A stretch of DNA of 64,000 nt from an uncultured Acidobacteriia bacterium (lineage in GTDB: Bacteria; Acidobacteriota; Terriglobia; Bryobacterales; Bryobacteraceae), in NCBI GenBank assembly GCA_903907865.1, contig CAIVPR010000085.1, positions 62,001-126,000 on the forward strand. The letters are read 5' to 3'. The stretch's first letter is position 1; every line of letters begins with the position of its first letter. Positions 14,727 to 56,324 of this stretch are shown one piece after another. The notes beneath the pieces were generated by a model that did no database searches, was not told where the DNA came from, and worked only from the letters and a program-made list of their open reading frames with translations. The translations under genes and the position numbers were made by a program.

Positions 14727-14785
14727 GTTTCTATTGTCGCACCGGAAAACTGAAAGGTTTCCTCAACTTGGGGTCGAAGGTTGGC

Positions 14786-14813
14786 TAAAGTTTATCGCCC
14801 ATCCTGCCGATAA
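14786..14813 (+). promoter_or_regulatory. Sigma-28 (FliA)-like promoter
   Basis: TAAAGTTT (14786-14793), 12 nt, GCCGATAA (14806-14813). Both boxes match the enterobacterial FliA consensus (TAAAGTTT-N11-GCCGATAA) exactly, with the spacer one base longer. The same N12 spacing recurs at 33813-33840 and 34044-34071. It points at the small membrane protein gene at 14836. Confidence 0.7.
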
Positions 14814-32288: not shown

Positions 32289-33734
32289 CTATTCGCGGCC
32301 ACGCAAGCTGGCAGGCGGAAAGTAGGTCCCGCGGGACTCCCGGAACCACCAATTCCCGGTCCGCCGGTGTTCTTCGAAGCTCGTGAACCGGTATTCGTAG
32401 CGCATGGCGCGAACATATTTCGGAGGGCGCTCGCCGAAGGGAGTCCGTTCGAACAGGGCAAGAACCGGCTTCGACGGCTCGAGGAGCCGCAGGAGAAGCC
32501 GGGTGAACCACGGGTTGTCGCGCGCGGTGCCCAGAGCTGCGAACCACATCTGCCAATCGAGCCGCGGCTGCAACGGGGCGATCCAGCCGGGGGCCCGTCC
32601 CAACGGACCGGGTTTGTGGGGCAAGACGTAGGGGAGCCAAGTCTCGCCGTCCATGGAGCCTTCAATTTCGATCTCCATGCGCGTGGTGGTCATCACGGCG
32701 AAGAGACCGTATCGGTTGACGATGCCAAACGGAGCTTGCGCCTCGATGACGGCCTCCACCGGGGCGGGCGGGGTGGCGAACATGCCCCAAATCTCGGCTA
32801 TCGAGAGGAAGGCGATCACCGAGGCCAACGCGATTGTTACCGGTCGTCTTGCGGGTGCCGAGGGGGCCCGGGCCGGGCGCAGGCGGAGTCGCGACAGGAA
32901 GTCGTCATCGAACAGAAACAGGCAGAGGGCAATCGTGAGCAGGTTGAAATAGGTGTAGTTGCCGGTAAGGAAGATGAGCAGTTGGAGTCCGATGGTGCCG
33001 AACCCCGCGATGTGCCTGGCGCGGCGGGGGCCGAACATCAGGAACGGCAGCGCCAGTTCGACCACGAAGACCATCGCGGTGGAAAATCTATGGAAGGCAA
33101 GCGGCAACTGGGCAGCCAGCCAAGCGGGCGGTGCCGGAAGGGGCTGGGTCTCGTAGTGGCGCGCTAGAGCGGTTAGATTGCGCCACGAGAGGTCGTGGCT
33201 CAGGATCTTGACCAGCCCGGACTCCAGCATCAGCCTTGCGAGCAGACAGCGGAAGAGCAGCGGCCTCCAGCGGTCGGGGATAAGAAATAGAGCCAGGAAA
33301 CCGACTTCGAGTAGCAGGTAATCCCACTGGTATTCCATGAACAATTGTCCGCCACTGACGATGGAAAGGTGGTAGCAGTAGAGGATCGCGAAGATGGCGC
33401 GCTGCCAAGTGCTGAACGGCTTGGCGAGGATGGCAACAGCGGCGAGAGCGACGCCGCTCCAAGCGACGGCGAGGATTGAGAGGTCGCCGCGCGACCACCA
33501 GAACAGCGTTGGTGCCCGCAGGAACAGACTGACACCGGGCGGCCCAGCTGGCAAATAGGTTGCGAGAGGCAGGATGCCGTCGTGCCCGACCAGGCCCCTG
33601 GCCTGCGTGCCAAACGAGGCGAACGCGGCCATGTAAATGAGTGCGAGAGCAATGGTAAATGCGGAAGACGCGGCGTTGTAGGACGGTCGACTGCTAGGTG
33701 GGTGTTCGGCGGTCAAGATCCACGTGTAGCACAC
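32289..33734 (-). CDS. Lipase maturation factor family membrane protein
   Basis: A 481-residue polytopic membrane protein. WDYLLLEVGFLALFL, LLARLMLESGLVKILS, WRNLTALARHYETQPLP and PHKPGPLGRAPGWIAPLQPRLDWQMW are the landmarks of the LMF1 (PF06762) family. In animals LMF1 helps secreted lipases fold; the bacterial role is unknown. The first part has about seven or eight helices and the C-terminal third is soluble. The start is GTG 33734, but the GGAGGG upstream sits only 3 nt away, so a start slightly further in is possible. Confidence 0.88.
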   Translation of the reverse strand: MCYTWILTAEHPPSSRPSYNAASSAFTIALALIYMAAFASFGTQARGLVGHDGILPLATYLPAGPPGVSLFLRAPTLFWWSRGDLSILAVAWSGVALAAVAILAKPFSTWQRAIFAILYCYHLSIVSGGQLFMEYQWDYLLLEVGFLALFLIPDRWRPLLFRCLLARLMLESGLVKILSHDLSWRNLTALARHYETQPLPAPPAWLAAQLPLAFHRFSTAMVFVVELALPFLMFGPRRARHIAGFGTIGLQLLIFLTGNYTYFNLLTIALCLFLFDDDFLSRLRLRPARAPSAPARRPVTIALASVIAFLSIAEIWGMFATPPAPVEAVIEAQAPFGIVNRYGLFAVMTTTRMEIEIEGSMDGETWLPYVLPHKPGPLGRAPGWIAPLQPRLDWQMWFAALGTARDNPWFTRLLLRLLEPSKPVLALFERTPFGERPPKYVRAMRYEYRFTSFEEHRRTGNWWFRESRGTYFPPASLRGRE

Positions 33735-33789
33735 CCGCCCTCCAGAGGTGGTTCCCTACTTGCAAGCCGGGGGAATGGAGTCCTCGCTC

Positions 33790-33843
33790 ATCAGAAATTT
33801 TCGGACGGACCCTAAAGCTTTTGCATGGAGCCGTCGATATGTA
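33790..33843 (+). repeat. Imperfect 54-nt direct repeat, copy 1
   Basis: It aligns without gaps to 34021-34074 at 41 of 54 positions. The central GACCCTAAAGCTTTT and the CGATA near the end are identical. It carries a sigma-28-like promoter. Confidence 0.75.
33813..33840 (+). promoter_or_regulatory. Sigma-28-like promoter, upstream copy
   Basis: TAAAGCTT (33813-33820), 12 nt, GTCGATAT (33833-33840). It deviates from the FliA -10 consensus at two positions (T for C, and T for the final A) but keeps the same spacing as the other two sites. Confidence 0.45.
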
Positions 33844-34020
33844 GGGTTGATAGCCGAACTGTAGCCAAGCTGGCGCGGGTGATCGTGGAACGCGGCCGAG
33901 TGGCCCTTGCTGCAATCGGCGTCGCGAAGATGACGGGGTGGCACCAGTGAAAACGATGAGCGCCGACCCTGAACCTGCCACCGTCCCCGTGCACCCCGCC
34001 CGGATGCAAGGCATCGAAAT

Positions 34021-34074
34021 ATCAGAATTCTACAGATAGACCCTAAAGCTTTTTCACGGACTGGCCGATAAGTA
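34021..34074 (+). repeat. Imperfect 54-nt direct repeat, copy 2
   Basis: Copy 2 of the block at 33790-33843. It ends 4 nt before the start codon of the porin-like gene. Confidence 0.75.
34044..34071 (+). promoter_or_regulatory. Sigma-28-like promoter adjoining the porin-like gene
   Basis: TAAAGCTT (34044-34051), 12 nt, GCCGATAA (34064-34071). The -10 box is a perfect FliA match. It ends 7 nt before the ATG at 34079, so the predicted transcript would be leaderless; no Shine-Dalgarno sequence is present. Confidence 0.6.
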
Positions 34075-34078
34075 CCAC

Positions 34079-35446
34079 ATGAGACGGTGGTACACAATAA
34101 AGCCTTTCCCCTATCTCTGTGCCGCATTGCTGGCAAATTTCCAGCTCTCCGCGCAGGAAGCAGACAGAAAACTGCTGGAGGACCCGGTGGTCTCCAAGCT
34201 ATTGCAGCGGCTGGCCGACGACGAGGCCCGGATTCGAAGTTTAGAGGCTCGTTTGTCCTCTCTGCTGCCTCCCGCCGCAGCGGTCCCCGACCACGGGGGT
34301 GTGACGGCGTCCCCCGTCCTTGCGCCGGTTCCGACAGGTAATGGCGAGGCCAAGTCAAGCCCTGCCACGGAACCTGATTCTGCCAGCGCATTGGCCATGG
34401 CAAGCATGATGGCCGGCGACCACGACCACGCCATGGAGATTCCTGGCGGGCCCGTGCTTAAGTTCCGAGGATTTACCGACCTCGGATTCGGTGTCGGACA
34501 AGCTTCCAATCACTTGGTATTTCCACTCGGCGTCCCCGGGCACTCAACGTTCACGATTGGCGAATTCGACCTCTTCATGTCGTCCAAGATCTCCGACCAC
34601 TTGAGCTTCGCCAGCGAATTGGTTGTCGGCCCCAGCCCTGACAATTCGTGGGGACTGGACATCGAGCGCATCCAGTTGACCTACCGGGCCAATCCCTATT
34701 TTGAGGTTAGCGGCGGACGGTACCATACAGCGATTGGCTACTACAACACGATGTTCCACCACGGGACATGGTTCCAAGCGGCGACGGGTCGACCTTTCAT
34801 GTATCTGTTTGAGGATTCGGGCGGCCTGCTACCGGTTCACAATGTCGGCCTTACGGCTACGGGGCTGGTGCCGGGCACCGAAAAGCTGGGGCTCCATTGG
34901 ATCGCCGAAGTCGGCAACGGCCGGACCTCGGACAGGAACGCCTACACCGTCCAGAATTTTGTTGCGGACAAGAACCGGAAGAGTTTCAACGTTGCGGCCT
35001 ATGTGCGGCCGGAAGGAGTCCCCGGCTTGCAGGTCGGGGGATCGATCTATCGGGACCGTCTCTACCCCGACACGGTCACTCCCGTGAACCAGACAGTGGC
35101 TAGCGCCTACGCGGTCTATGGCAACTCAACATGGGAGTTCCTGAACGAGGGAGTGCTCCTGCGCAACGCTTCGGGGTTCAACCACCGCGTCTACAACACA
35201 CCGATGATGTACAGCCAAGTCTCGCGCAGGTTTGGGGCATATCGGCCCTACCTCCGGTATCAGTACGTCAACGCGATTGCCGGCGACCCGGTCAATGTCT
35301 ATCGTGGCAAGTACGCGGGACCATCCTTTGGAATCCGGTACGATCTGTCCGACTACGCGGCTTTGAAGTTCCAGTACAACCGCATCAACCAGACGGGGAT
35401 TGCGGCTTTGAACGGCTTGGAAACACAGCTGGCCTTTACGTTCTAG
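34079..35446 (+). CDS. Outer-membrane porin-like beta-barrel protein
   Basis: A 455-residue protein with a signal peptide (to LSAQ). A short coiled-coil segment follows (DDEARIRSLEARLSSL, as in phosphate-selective-type porins), then a Pro/Ala linker. A beta-barrel of alternating strands ends in QLAFTF, a C-terminal Phe as needed for BAM assembly. DHDHAMEIPGGP before the barrel is His/Asp-rich and might bind metal. The next gene encodes a small phosphate-binding-like protein, so uptake of an oxyanion or attachment is plausible. The promoter looks sigma-28-dependent. Confidence 0.75.
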   Translation: MRRWYTIKPFPYLCAALLANFQLSAQEADRKLLEDPVVSKLLQRLADDEARIRSLEARLSSLLPPAAAVPDHGGVTASPVLAPVPTGNGEAKSSPATEPDSASALAMASMMAGDHDHAMEIPGGPVLKFRGFTDLGFGVGQASNHLVFPLGVPGHSTFTIGEFDLFMSSKISDHLSFASELVVGPSPDNSWGLDIERIQLTYRANPYFEVSGGRYHTAIGYYNTMFHHGTWFQAATGRPFMYLFEDSGGLLPVHNVGLTATGLVPGTEKLGLHWIAEVGNGRTSDRNAYTVQNFVADKNRKSFNVAAYVRPEGVPGLQVGGSIYRDRLYPDTVTPVNQTVASAYAVYGNSTWEFLNEGVLLRNASGFNHRVYNTPMMYSQVSRRFGAYRPYLRYQYVNAIAGDPVNVYRGKYAGPSFGIRYDLSDYAALKFQYNRINQTGIAALNGLETQLAFTF

Positions 35447-35479
35447 GGCAGCTTGGAAAGAAGAAAGAGAGGAGGGCCT

Positions 35480-35911
35480 ATGAGGAGATATATCGTCGCC
35501 ATGGTCATGGTGATCGGCATGAGCAACGTCAGCGCCGTGCATGCGGGTGCGGAAATCGTACTGGTCGTCAACAAGTCTAATCCAGTCAATACCTTAACGA
35601 AGGCACGAGTACGGAGCATGATTCTTGGAGCGGTCAAGAAATGGCCGACGGGGGACGCTGTGTCGGTGATTACGACTAGCCCTGGGGACGCGGAACGCAA
35701 GTCGGCTTTGTTGACCTACGCAGGGATGAGTGAACAGCAATTCGCCACGGCATTTCTGCAAGCCAACTTCAAGGGCGAGGACCGGACACCCCCTAAGACC
35801 CTGCCCAATGGCAAGATCATTGTTCAGATTGTTGCGCTCACACCGGGAGCGATCGGCTTCGTTGATTCCGCCGATTTGAGCCCGATGGTCAAGCGCGTGG
35901 CTGTCGAGTAG
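35480..35911 (+). CDS. Short periplasmic phosphate-binding-like protein
   Basis: A 143-residue protein with a signal peptide. It has the PBP-like features VLVVNKSNPVNTLTKARVRS and ILGAVKKWPTGDAVSVIT, with VALTPGAIGFVDSADLS near the C-terminus. This is the compact PstS-like fold found as stand-alone proteins in many Proteobacteria and acidobacteria. AGGAGG precedes the ATG at 35480. It lies 33 nt after the porin gene and is probably co-transcribed, suggesting a pair in which the small protein captures a ligand behind the pore. The ligand is not proven. The 3' end overlaps the opposite-strand glycosyltransferase gene by 23 nt. Confidence 0.78.
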   Translation: MRRYIVAMVMVIGMSNVSAVHAGAEIVLVVNKSNPVNTLTKARVRSMILGAVKKWPTGDAVSVITTSPGDAERKSALLTYAGMSEQQFATAFLQANFKGEDRTPPKTLPNGKIIVQIVALTPGAIGFVDSADLSPMVKRVAVE

Positions 35912-55350: not shown

Positions 55351-55358
55351 ACCCGCGT

Positions 55359-56324
55359 CTAGCGCGCCGAGGGTGCCACACCCTTCGCATGCCCACCAGC
55401 CTTGAACGGGAGTGGGTGGTAATCGCCCACAAGATCCACATTCATGGTCGGAGTGATGGCCGATTCGAGGCCGAGCGCCCAATAAACCGCGTTCACCAGC
55501 AGCCGACCTTGGGCAGGCACCAGGAGATCCTCGGACGTCCCCATCGTCGTAACGAAGATTCGGGCGTTCGCTGTCCGAGTCCACGCCACCGGCATCATTG
55601 GCTCGCTCTGCGTGCCCGGCACGGGGTCGTCCTTGGCGCTCATCCCGGCGAGAACCTGCCCGTTCACCAAGACCCGCGCGTCGGCGGGCAGAGGCGTTCT
55701 GACCGTGTAGACATCCGTCGGACTCCATAGTTCGCCCGAACGGATGCCTCGCAGTATCGGGTGGTCGGCCACATTGTCGGGAATGATGCCGCGCGTGCTC
55801 TGTTGGCCATGCTTGCCGTGGTGGCTCACCCAGGTTTCCCCCAGGACGCGCTTCCCGAAACCGCCGTCCGGCTGGTTCCAGCTATAGGCCATGTAGGTCG
55901 GGCTGGACTTGATCTGGAAGGCGTGGGTCGCCGTCCGCAGGGCGACGATGGGCTTGCCGGATTCCACGTAATCTACAATGTGCTTCATCTGCGCATCCGG
56001 GAGGTCCCGGAATCGGGTGTGGATCACCATCAGATCGGCAGTGTCGAGCGCCTCCAGGCCCGGAATGTTGCCACTCTCGCCGGGGTTGATGGTGCCGTCT
56101 TTCTTATCGATCGCGAAAAGCACCGTGCAGCGAAAGCCGTGCCGCGTCGCGAGAATCTTCGCAAGCTGCGGCAGCAGTTCCTCTGACCGGTATTCCTCGT
56201 CGCCGCTCACCAGCACCACGTGCTTCAACTTGGCGGGCGCCGAGGGTTCCAACGTGATCCACGGATCCGCCGCAAACGCCGCCGACACCGCAAACGCAGC
56301 CAAAACCAACAGCCTACCGCGCAA
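55359..56324 (-). CDS. Secreted ThuA-domain protein
   Basis: A protein of about 321 residues with a signal peptide (RLLVLAAFAVSAAFA) and a ThuA/class-I amidotransferase-like fold: LKHVVLVSGDEEYRSEELL, ADLMVIHTRFRDLPDAQ, IVALRTATHAFQI, GETWVSHHGKHG and PVAWTRTANARIFVTTMG. ThuA proteins act on trehalose-like sugars in some bacteria. TTG 56324 is chosen as start because it puts the signal peptide first and overlaps the M20 gene stop by 11 nt; the longer frame reading from 56429 lies inside that gene. It belongs to a run of exported hydrolase genes. Confidence 0.82.
   Translation of the reverse strand: MRGRLLVLAAFAVSAAFAADPWITLEPSAPAKLKHVVLVSGDEEYRSEELLPQLAKILATRHGFRCTVLFAIDKKDGTINPGESGNIPGLEALDTADLMVIHTRFRDLPDAQMKHIVDYVESGKPIVALRTATHAFQIKSSPTYMAYSWNQPDGGFGKRVLGETWVSHHGKHGQQSTRGIIPDNVADHPILRGIRSGELWSPTDVYTVRTPLPADARVLVNGQVLAGMSAKDDPVPGTQSEPMMPVAWTRTANARIFVTTMGTSEDLLVPAQGRLLVNAVYWALGLESAITPTMNVDLVGDYHPLPFKAGGHAKGVAPSAR

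Follow-up and report, generated by a model that had tools for sequence, protein, structure and literature searches.

Probable tandem sigma-28-type promoters upstream of a putative porin operon in a soil acidobacterium

Results

Genes and features at the locus

The window, i.e. the whole 64-kb stretch of DNA analysed, belongs to the genome (7.5 Mb, 186 contigs) of a flagellated soil acidobacterium, the nearest named records being uncultured Acidobacteriia or Bryobacterales genomes. A gene coding for a predicted porin and a gene coding for a small PBP-like protein follow an intergenic region which contains two copies of a 54-nt block and is bounded on its other side by a divergent lipase maturation factor gene (Table 1).

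The porin sequence had no match in Pfam or NCBIfam. Its predicted structure (mean pLDDT 70, moderate confidence) consists of N-terminal helices followed by a beta-barrel, and Foldseek searches with this model identified PorB (E 2e-12), OprP (E 1e-11), OprO and OmpC-type porins, indicating at the level of the model that the product is an outer-membrane porin. OprP and OprO are channels for phosphate and polyphosphate. Because these porins are matched and the next gene is weakly PstS-type, the substrate might be phosphate, although the model also matches general porins. For the PBP-like gene a longer start at 35453 is also possible. A second porin of the same genome (C98, L046), 41 % identical to the first, is encoded just downstream of an apparent histidine phosphotransfer domain (KKLLHSLKGSCAQMG); no sigma-28-type site was found at that porin.

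Table 1 Features of the porin locus (window coordinates)
Feature	Position	Strand	Remarks
Lipase maturation factor gene	32289-33734	-	Divergent neighbour, outside the operon; PF06762, PF25179; same neighbour in G018
Block 1, upstream sigma-28-type promoter (copy 1)	33790-33843	+	Repeat; matrix score 25.2
Block 1, -35 CTAAAG	33812-33817	+
Block 1, -10 GTCGATA	33833-33839	+
Block 1, core	33812-33839	+	CTAAAGCTTTTGCATGGAGCCGTCGATA
Spacer between the blocks	33844-34020	+	177 nt; leader of the putative block 1 transcript; lineage-specific
27-codon leader ORF	33956-34039	+	MSADPEPATVPVHPARMQGIEISEFYR; six-frame translation; probably not a gene
Block 2, sigma-28-type promoter at porin start (copy 2)	34021-34074	+	Repeat; matrix score 26.3
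Block 2, -35 CTAAAG	34043-34048	+
Block 2, -10 GCCGATA	34064-34070	+
Block 2, core	34043-34070	+	CTAAAGCTTTTTCACGGACTGGCCGATA
Porin gene	34079-35446	+	455 aa; first gene of the putative operon; N-terminal helices, then beta-barrel
PBP-like (PstS-type) gene	35477-35911	+	Small protein; presumed second operon gene; PF12849 E 1.2e-5, under the curated cut-off; TIGR02136 weak

Two related copies of a sigma-28-type promoter

The first-pass annotation had described the blocks as two ungapped copies, 41 of 54 positions being identical and the copies lying 231 bp apart, with a sigma-28-like promoter of N12 spacing in each. Both descriptions were borne out; the repeat is direct, and the 231 bp are measured from start to start. 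The pattern TAAAGCTT-N12-G(C/T)CGATA(A/T) is present in both blocks and corresponds to CTAAAG-N15-G(C/T)CGATA, a sigma-28 (FliA)-type pattern. The porin ATG lies 8 nt past the end of the -10 element of copy 2. With a weight matrix built from other genomic sites, only three sites in the whole 64-kb window, both strands, scored at least 10: copy 1, copy 2 and a site at 14785-14812 (+). This third site (CTAAAGTTTATCGCCCATCCTGCCGATA, score 35.4) scored above both porin copies and is located upstream of a short ORF beginning MFWSLLLWTQLDW.

When the 13 core positions were excluded, the copies still matched at 29 of 41 positions, while agreement outside the core among 351 pairs of unrelated sites averaged 12.8 (SD 3.3) with a maximum of 24. 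The copies thus share ancestry, since they exceed every unrelated pair, and a shared motif was ruled out as the whole cause of their identity. The -35 element, the spacing and a recognisable -10 element have been retained in both. Among the free-gap matches listed across the genome, only the two porin copies lie on one strand within 1 kb of each other.

The motif in the window's genome

TAAAG-N15-GCCGATA matched 31 times in the window's genome, versus 0 matches for the reversed control pattern. When GYCGATA was taken as the -10 element and the gap after TAAA was left free between 12 and 20, 54 matches were obtained, 43 of them at one spacing (N16), versus 15 matches of the reversed control with free gap, summed over nine spacings. 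A peak at one spacing is the signature expected of a promoter class, and the same promoter is found about 40 times across the genome. That the matches arose by chance, or have a role other than that of sigma-28 promoters, is hardly credible in view of the control, the fixed spacing and the conservation at orthologues described below.

At 17 of 30 sites, an ORF of 120 aa or longer begins no more than 45 nt further downstream, versus 9.5 % of random window positions, from which it follows that short leaders are usual at these sites. For most sites the distance to a start codon does not exceed about 30 nt, and copy 2 fits this pattern. Divergent, back-to-back pairs of sigma-28-type sites were also present in the genome (C40:33364-33441, C119:8391-8479 and C141:148887-148993), which suggests that divergent genes are switched on together.

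The genes downstream of the sites include those for CheW, GGDEF proteins, HD_5 (HD-GYP-type) proteins, one of which has a receiver domain, and an HDOD protein. A LuxR-type regulator, a TonB-like protein, beta-lactamase-fold proteins and an outer-membrane-like protein of no assigned class are also among the targets, as are DUF4351 proteins. In this last family, three members or close look-alikes (L012, L024 and L027) have a sigma-28-type site immediately before their genes, which ties the family unexpectedly to the motility regulon.

FliA and flagellin genes

The window's genome contains flagellin genes and encodes two FliA/WhiG proteins above the TIGR02479 cut-off. Upstream of the flagellin gene on C158 is TAATGCTTCGGCCCACTCCTGCCGATA, spaced like the porin copies, and upstream of that on C141 is GTCGATAAGTA, with a poor -35 element. 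In relatives, too, the motif stands before flagellin genes, at N15 or N16. Among the flagellin promoters of the genus (L088-L107), the -10 element follows TAAA at either of two spacings, N15 or N16, and most genomes of the genus encode two FliA/WhiG proteins; a division of the spacings by gene cluster or FliA paralogue was considered and rejected, no clean split being observed in the genus.

Each copy at the porin gene could in principle be read by one of the two FliA paralogues. The presence of two such proteins agrees with this, as do the differing -10 elements (GTCGATA and GCCGATA), which likewise differ before the two flagellin genes. The N16 spacing is, however, identical in both copies, and across the genus neither spacing nor -10 variant is cleanly split by flagellin cluster, and such a division of labour is regarded as highly improbable.

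Among 40 relatives, 12 had no FliA match above the cut-off (G026, G028-G031, G033-G036 and G038-G040) and contained 0-1 sites each, not above their own controls. G015 and G018 contained 18 sites each versus 1 control match, the range in G000, G015 and G018 being 18-31. The co-occurrence of FliA and motif is imperfect, as a few FliA holders (G024, G027 and G037) had no exact site.

Porin orthologues and the history of the duplication

In all, 13 genomes yielded 18 porin loci, the nearest orthologues being those of G018 (78 %) and G015 (79 %). G018 shares the window's gene order, namely a reversed lipase maturation factor gene, which served as synteny anchor, then the porin and PBP-like genes and a reversed glycosyltransferase gene. 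The G018 and G015 porins have one promoter each, ending in GTCGATA just before the ATG. Sigma-28-type sites also precede the porins of G010 (where the gap is a base shorter), G013 and G009 as well as the second G004 locus, giving seven porin loci with an upstream site in the genus, the window included; none was found before the orthologues of G001, G002, G006 and the first G004 locus. A lack of conservation of either block upstream of orthologous porins had been named in the first-pass annotation as what would refute it. Conservation holds for the promoter, seven loci having one near the start codon, but not for its duplication, which neither of the two nearest orthologous loci shows and which is thus lineage-specific.

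In its distance from the lipase maturation gene the single promoter of G018/G015 type matches copy 1, and in its distance from the porin ATG it matches copy 2. By sequence it agrees with copy 1 at 29 of 54 positions versus 21-23 of 54 for copy 2. Since the two copies agree better with each other (41 of 54) than with the orthologue promoter, these comparisons favour a duplication in the window's lineage; alternatively, one copy may have been lost in the sister lineage by recombination between the repeats.

The porin orthologue of G009 (L039) also has two sigma-28-type sites, 154 bp apart, scoring 18.7 and 17.2; on both strands of the 64-kb window, all background sites score below 10. The G009 sites are unlike the window's copies, and this tandem pair is therefore probably of independent origin.

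The spacer

No DNA relative of the spacer was found among the 40 relatives. Tandem duplication of a block together with its flanks was considered and rejected, as the spacer matched 33613-33789 and 34075-34300 no better than shuffled sequence did; the block was copied without the flank on either side. A gene remnant in the spacer was likewise rejected, since matches elsewhere to the 27-aa frame ending in WHQ were at chance level (best E 0.375). This frame, which starts with ATG, and a 23-codon GTG frame before it make the earlier description of a leader of about 230 nt with no ORF inexact, although gene support was found for neither. Nor was the region confirmed as the longest non-coding stretch in the window, longer gaps occurring elsewhere, e.g. 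at 55351-56313 by a crude heuristic gene call.

A transcript starting at copy 1 had been suggested to be a small RNA or regulatory 5' UTR, but this suggestion gained no support. The unconserved leader folds like shuffled sequence (z = -0.03), has no Rfam family match and no terminator was found in it; similarity to the corresponding stretches of G009 or G013 was not above that of shuffles. A functional leader of about 230 nt or a MotR-like small RNA has a precedent in MotR itself (PMC10578931), and in G009, too, one sigma-28-type site lies a long way upstream of the porin. The window's leader has no sequence relative, however, that of G009 included. A MotR-like sRNA would be a discrete RNA with a terminator or processing site and with conserved or structured sequence, and no terminator, conservation or structure was seen in the leader. 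This function of copy 1 is considered very unlikely.

Discussion

Tandem sigma-28 (FliA) promoters probably drive a porin and PBP-like operon that would belong to the motility regulon. The sigma-28 reading of the motif is strongly supported by the fixed-spacing sites across the genome, their flagellin, CheW and c-di-GMP gene targets, the co-occurrence with FliA and the seven porin loci, and we infer that FliA is the sigma factor used. Transcription from sigma-28 promoters starts about 8 nt after the -10 element. Copy 2 would therefore start transcription on the porin ATG or only a few bases from it, and as the main promoter it would give a leaderless or near-leaderless mRNA of the two presumably co-transcribed genes. 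Copy 1 would be an extra, possibly active start near 33847, from which the operon would receive another, longer transcript. Its common ancestry with copy 2 would go back to a local duplication, unless one copy was lost in the sister lineage. The benefit could be more porin while the cell is motile. Several observations count against this proposal: the porin orthologues without the motif, the FliA holders without an exact site, the -10 element of copy 1, which is GTCGATA rather than the commoner GCCGATA (though GTCGATA is also the form in the single promoters of G015 and G018), and its distance of about 240 nt from the ATG, when the majority of genomic sites keep to about 30 nt or less.

Copy 1 might instead be a relic, left where the intergenic region grew by duplication or insertion, with copy 2 alone driving the porin. 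The nearest orthologues manage with a single promoter, the spacer is unconserved and the copies already differ at 13 of 54 positions, all of which would agree with a relic. On the other hand, the score of copy 1 is similar to that of copy 2 and above that of the G018 promoter (22.2), and only one of the 13 differences falls in the 13-nt core, a skew not significant alone. A relic is judged unlikely on this balance. The second, dissimilar pair in G009 raises the further idea of a recurrent dual-input device in the genus, in which porin levels at the onset of motility would be set by a pair of differing sigma-28 promoters; the two FliA paralogues might read them, or one promoter might yield a regulatory leader. 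Such a device is quite unlikely.

Under the preferred reading of two sigma-28 promoters serving one operon, an outer-membrane porin and a PBP-like protein would be linked to the flagellar sigma factor in Acidobacteria, a group for which no described sigma-28 regulon was found in a literature search with incomplete journal coverage. With so clean a motif, about 40 sites can be listed for testing, among them those of GGDEF, HD-GYP-type and CheW genes. By their sequence the two elements appear to be ordinary members of the motility gene network, of which only the doubling is unusual, and this doubling is a real but small, lineage-specific change.

The sRNA MotR of E. coli originates from the sigma-28-dependent 5' UTR of motA (PMC10578931). 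Copy 1 resembles this arrangement in that a sigma-28 promoter some distance upstream of the target would give a leader, but the leader, unlike MotR, has no sign of a terminator, structure or conservation. The modelled porin shares its barrel with OprP/OprO and the trimeric porins PorB and OmpC by Foldseek, from which it differs in its low identity (10-16 %) and an extra N-terminal helical part, in a model of moderate confidence.

The RpoF/FliA motif of Pseudomonas, printed as TAAAAGN15GCCGATA (PMC3247240), has the same two elements and is tied to fliC and chemotaxis genes, whereas phylum and targets are different and the printed spacing is slightly unlike the one here. In E. coli and Salmonella, FliA promoters follow TAAAGTTT-N11-GCCGATAA, and E. 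coli FliA also serves non-flagellar genes, e.g. modABC (PMC4183435, PMC4866697). The -35 TAAAG and -10 GCCGATA are the same as here, and flagellin, chemotaxis and c-di-GMP genes are targets in both, whereas the gap here is one base longer (TAAA-N16 versus TAAA-N15). The promoters described here are ordinary examples of a well-known class, from a phylum that has been little studied, and differ from the enterobacterial ones in that the target is a porin and PBP-like gene pair, the host is an acidobacterium and the promoter is doubled.
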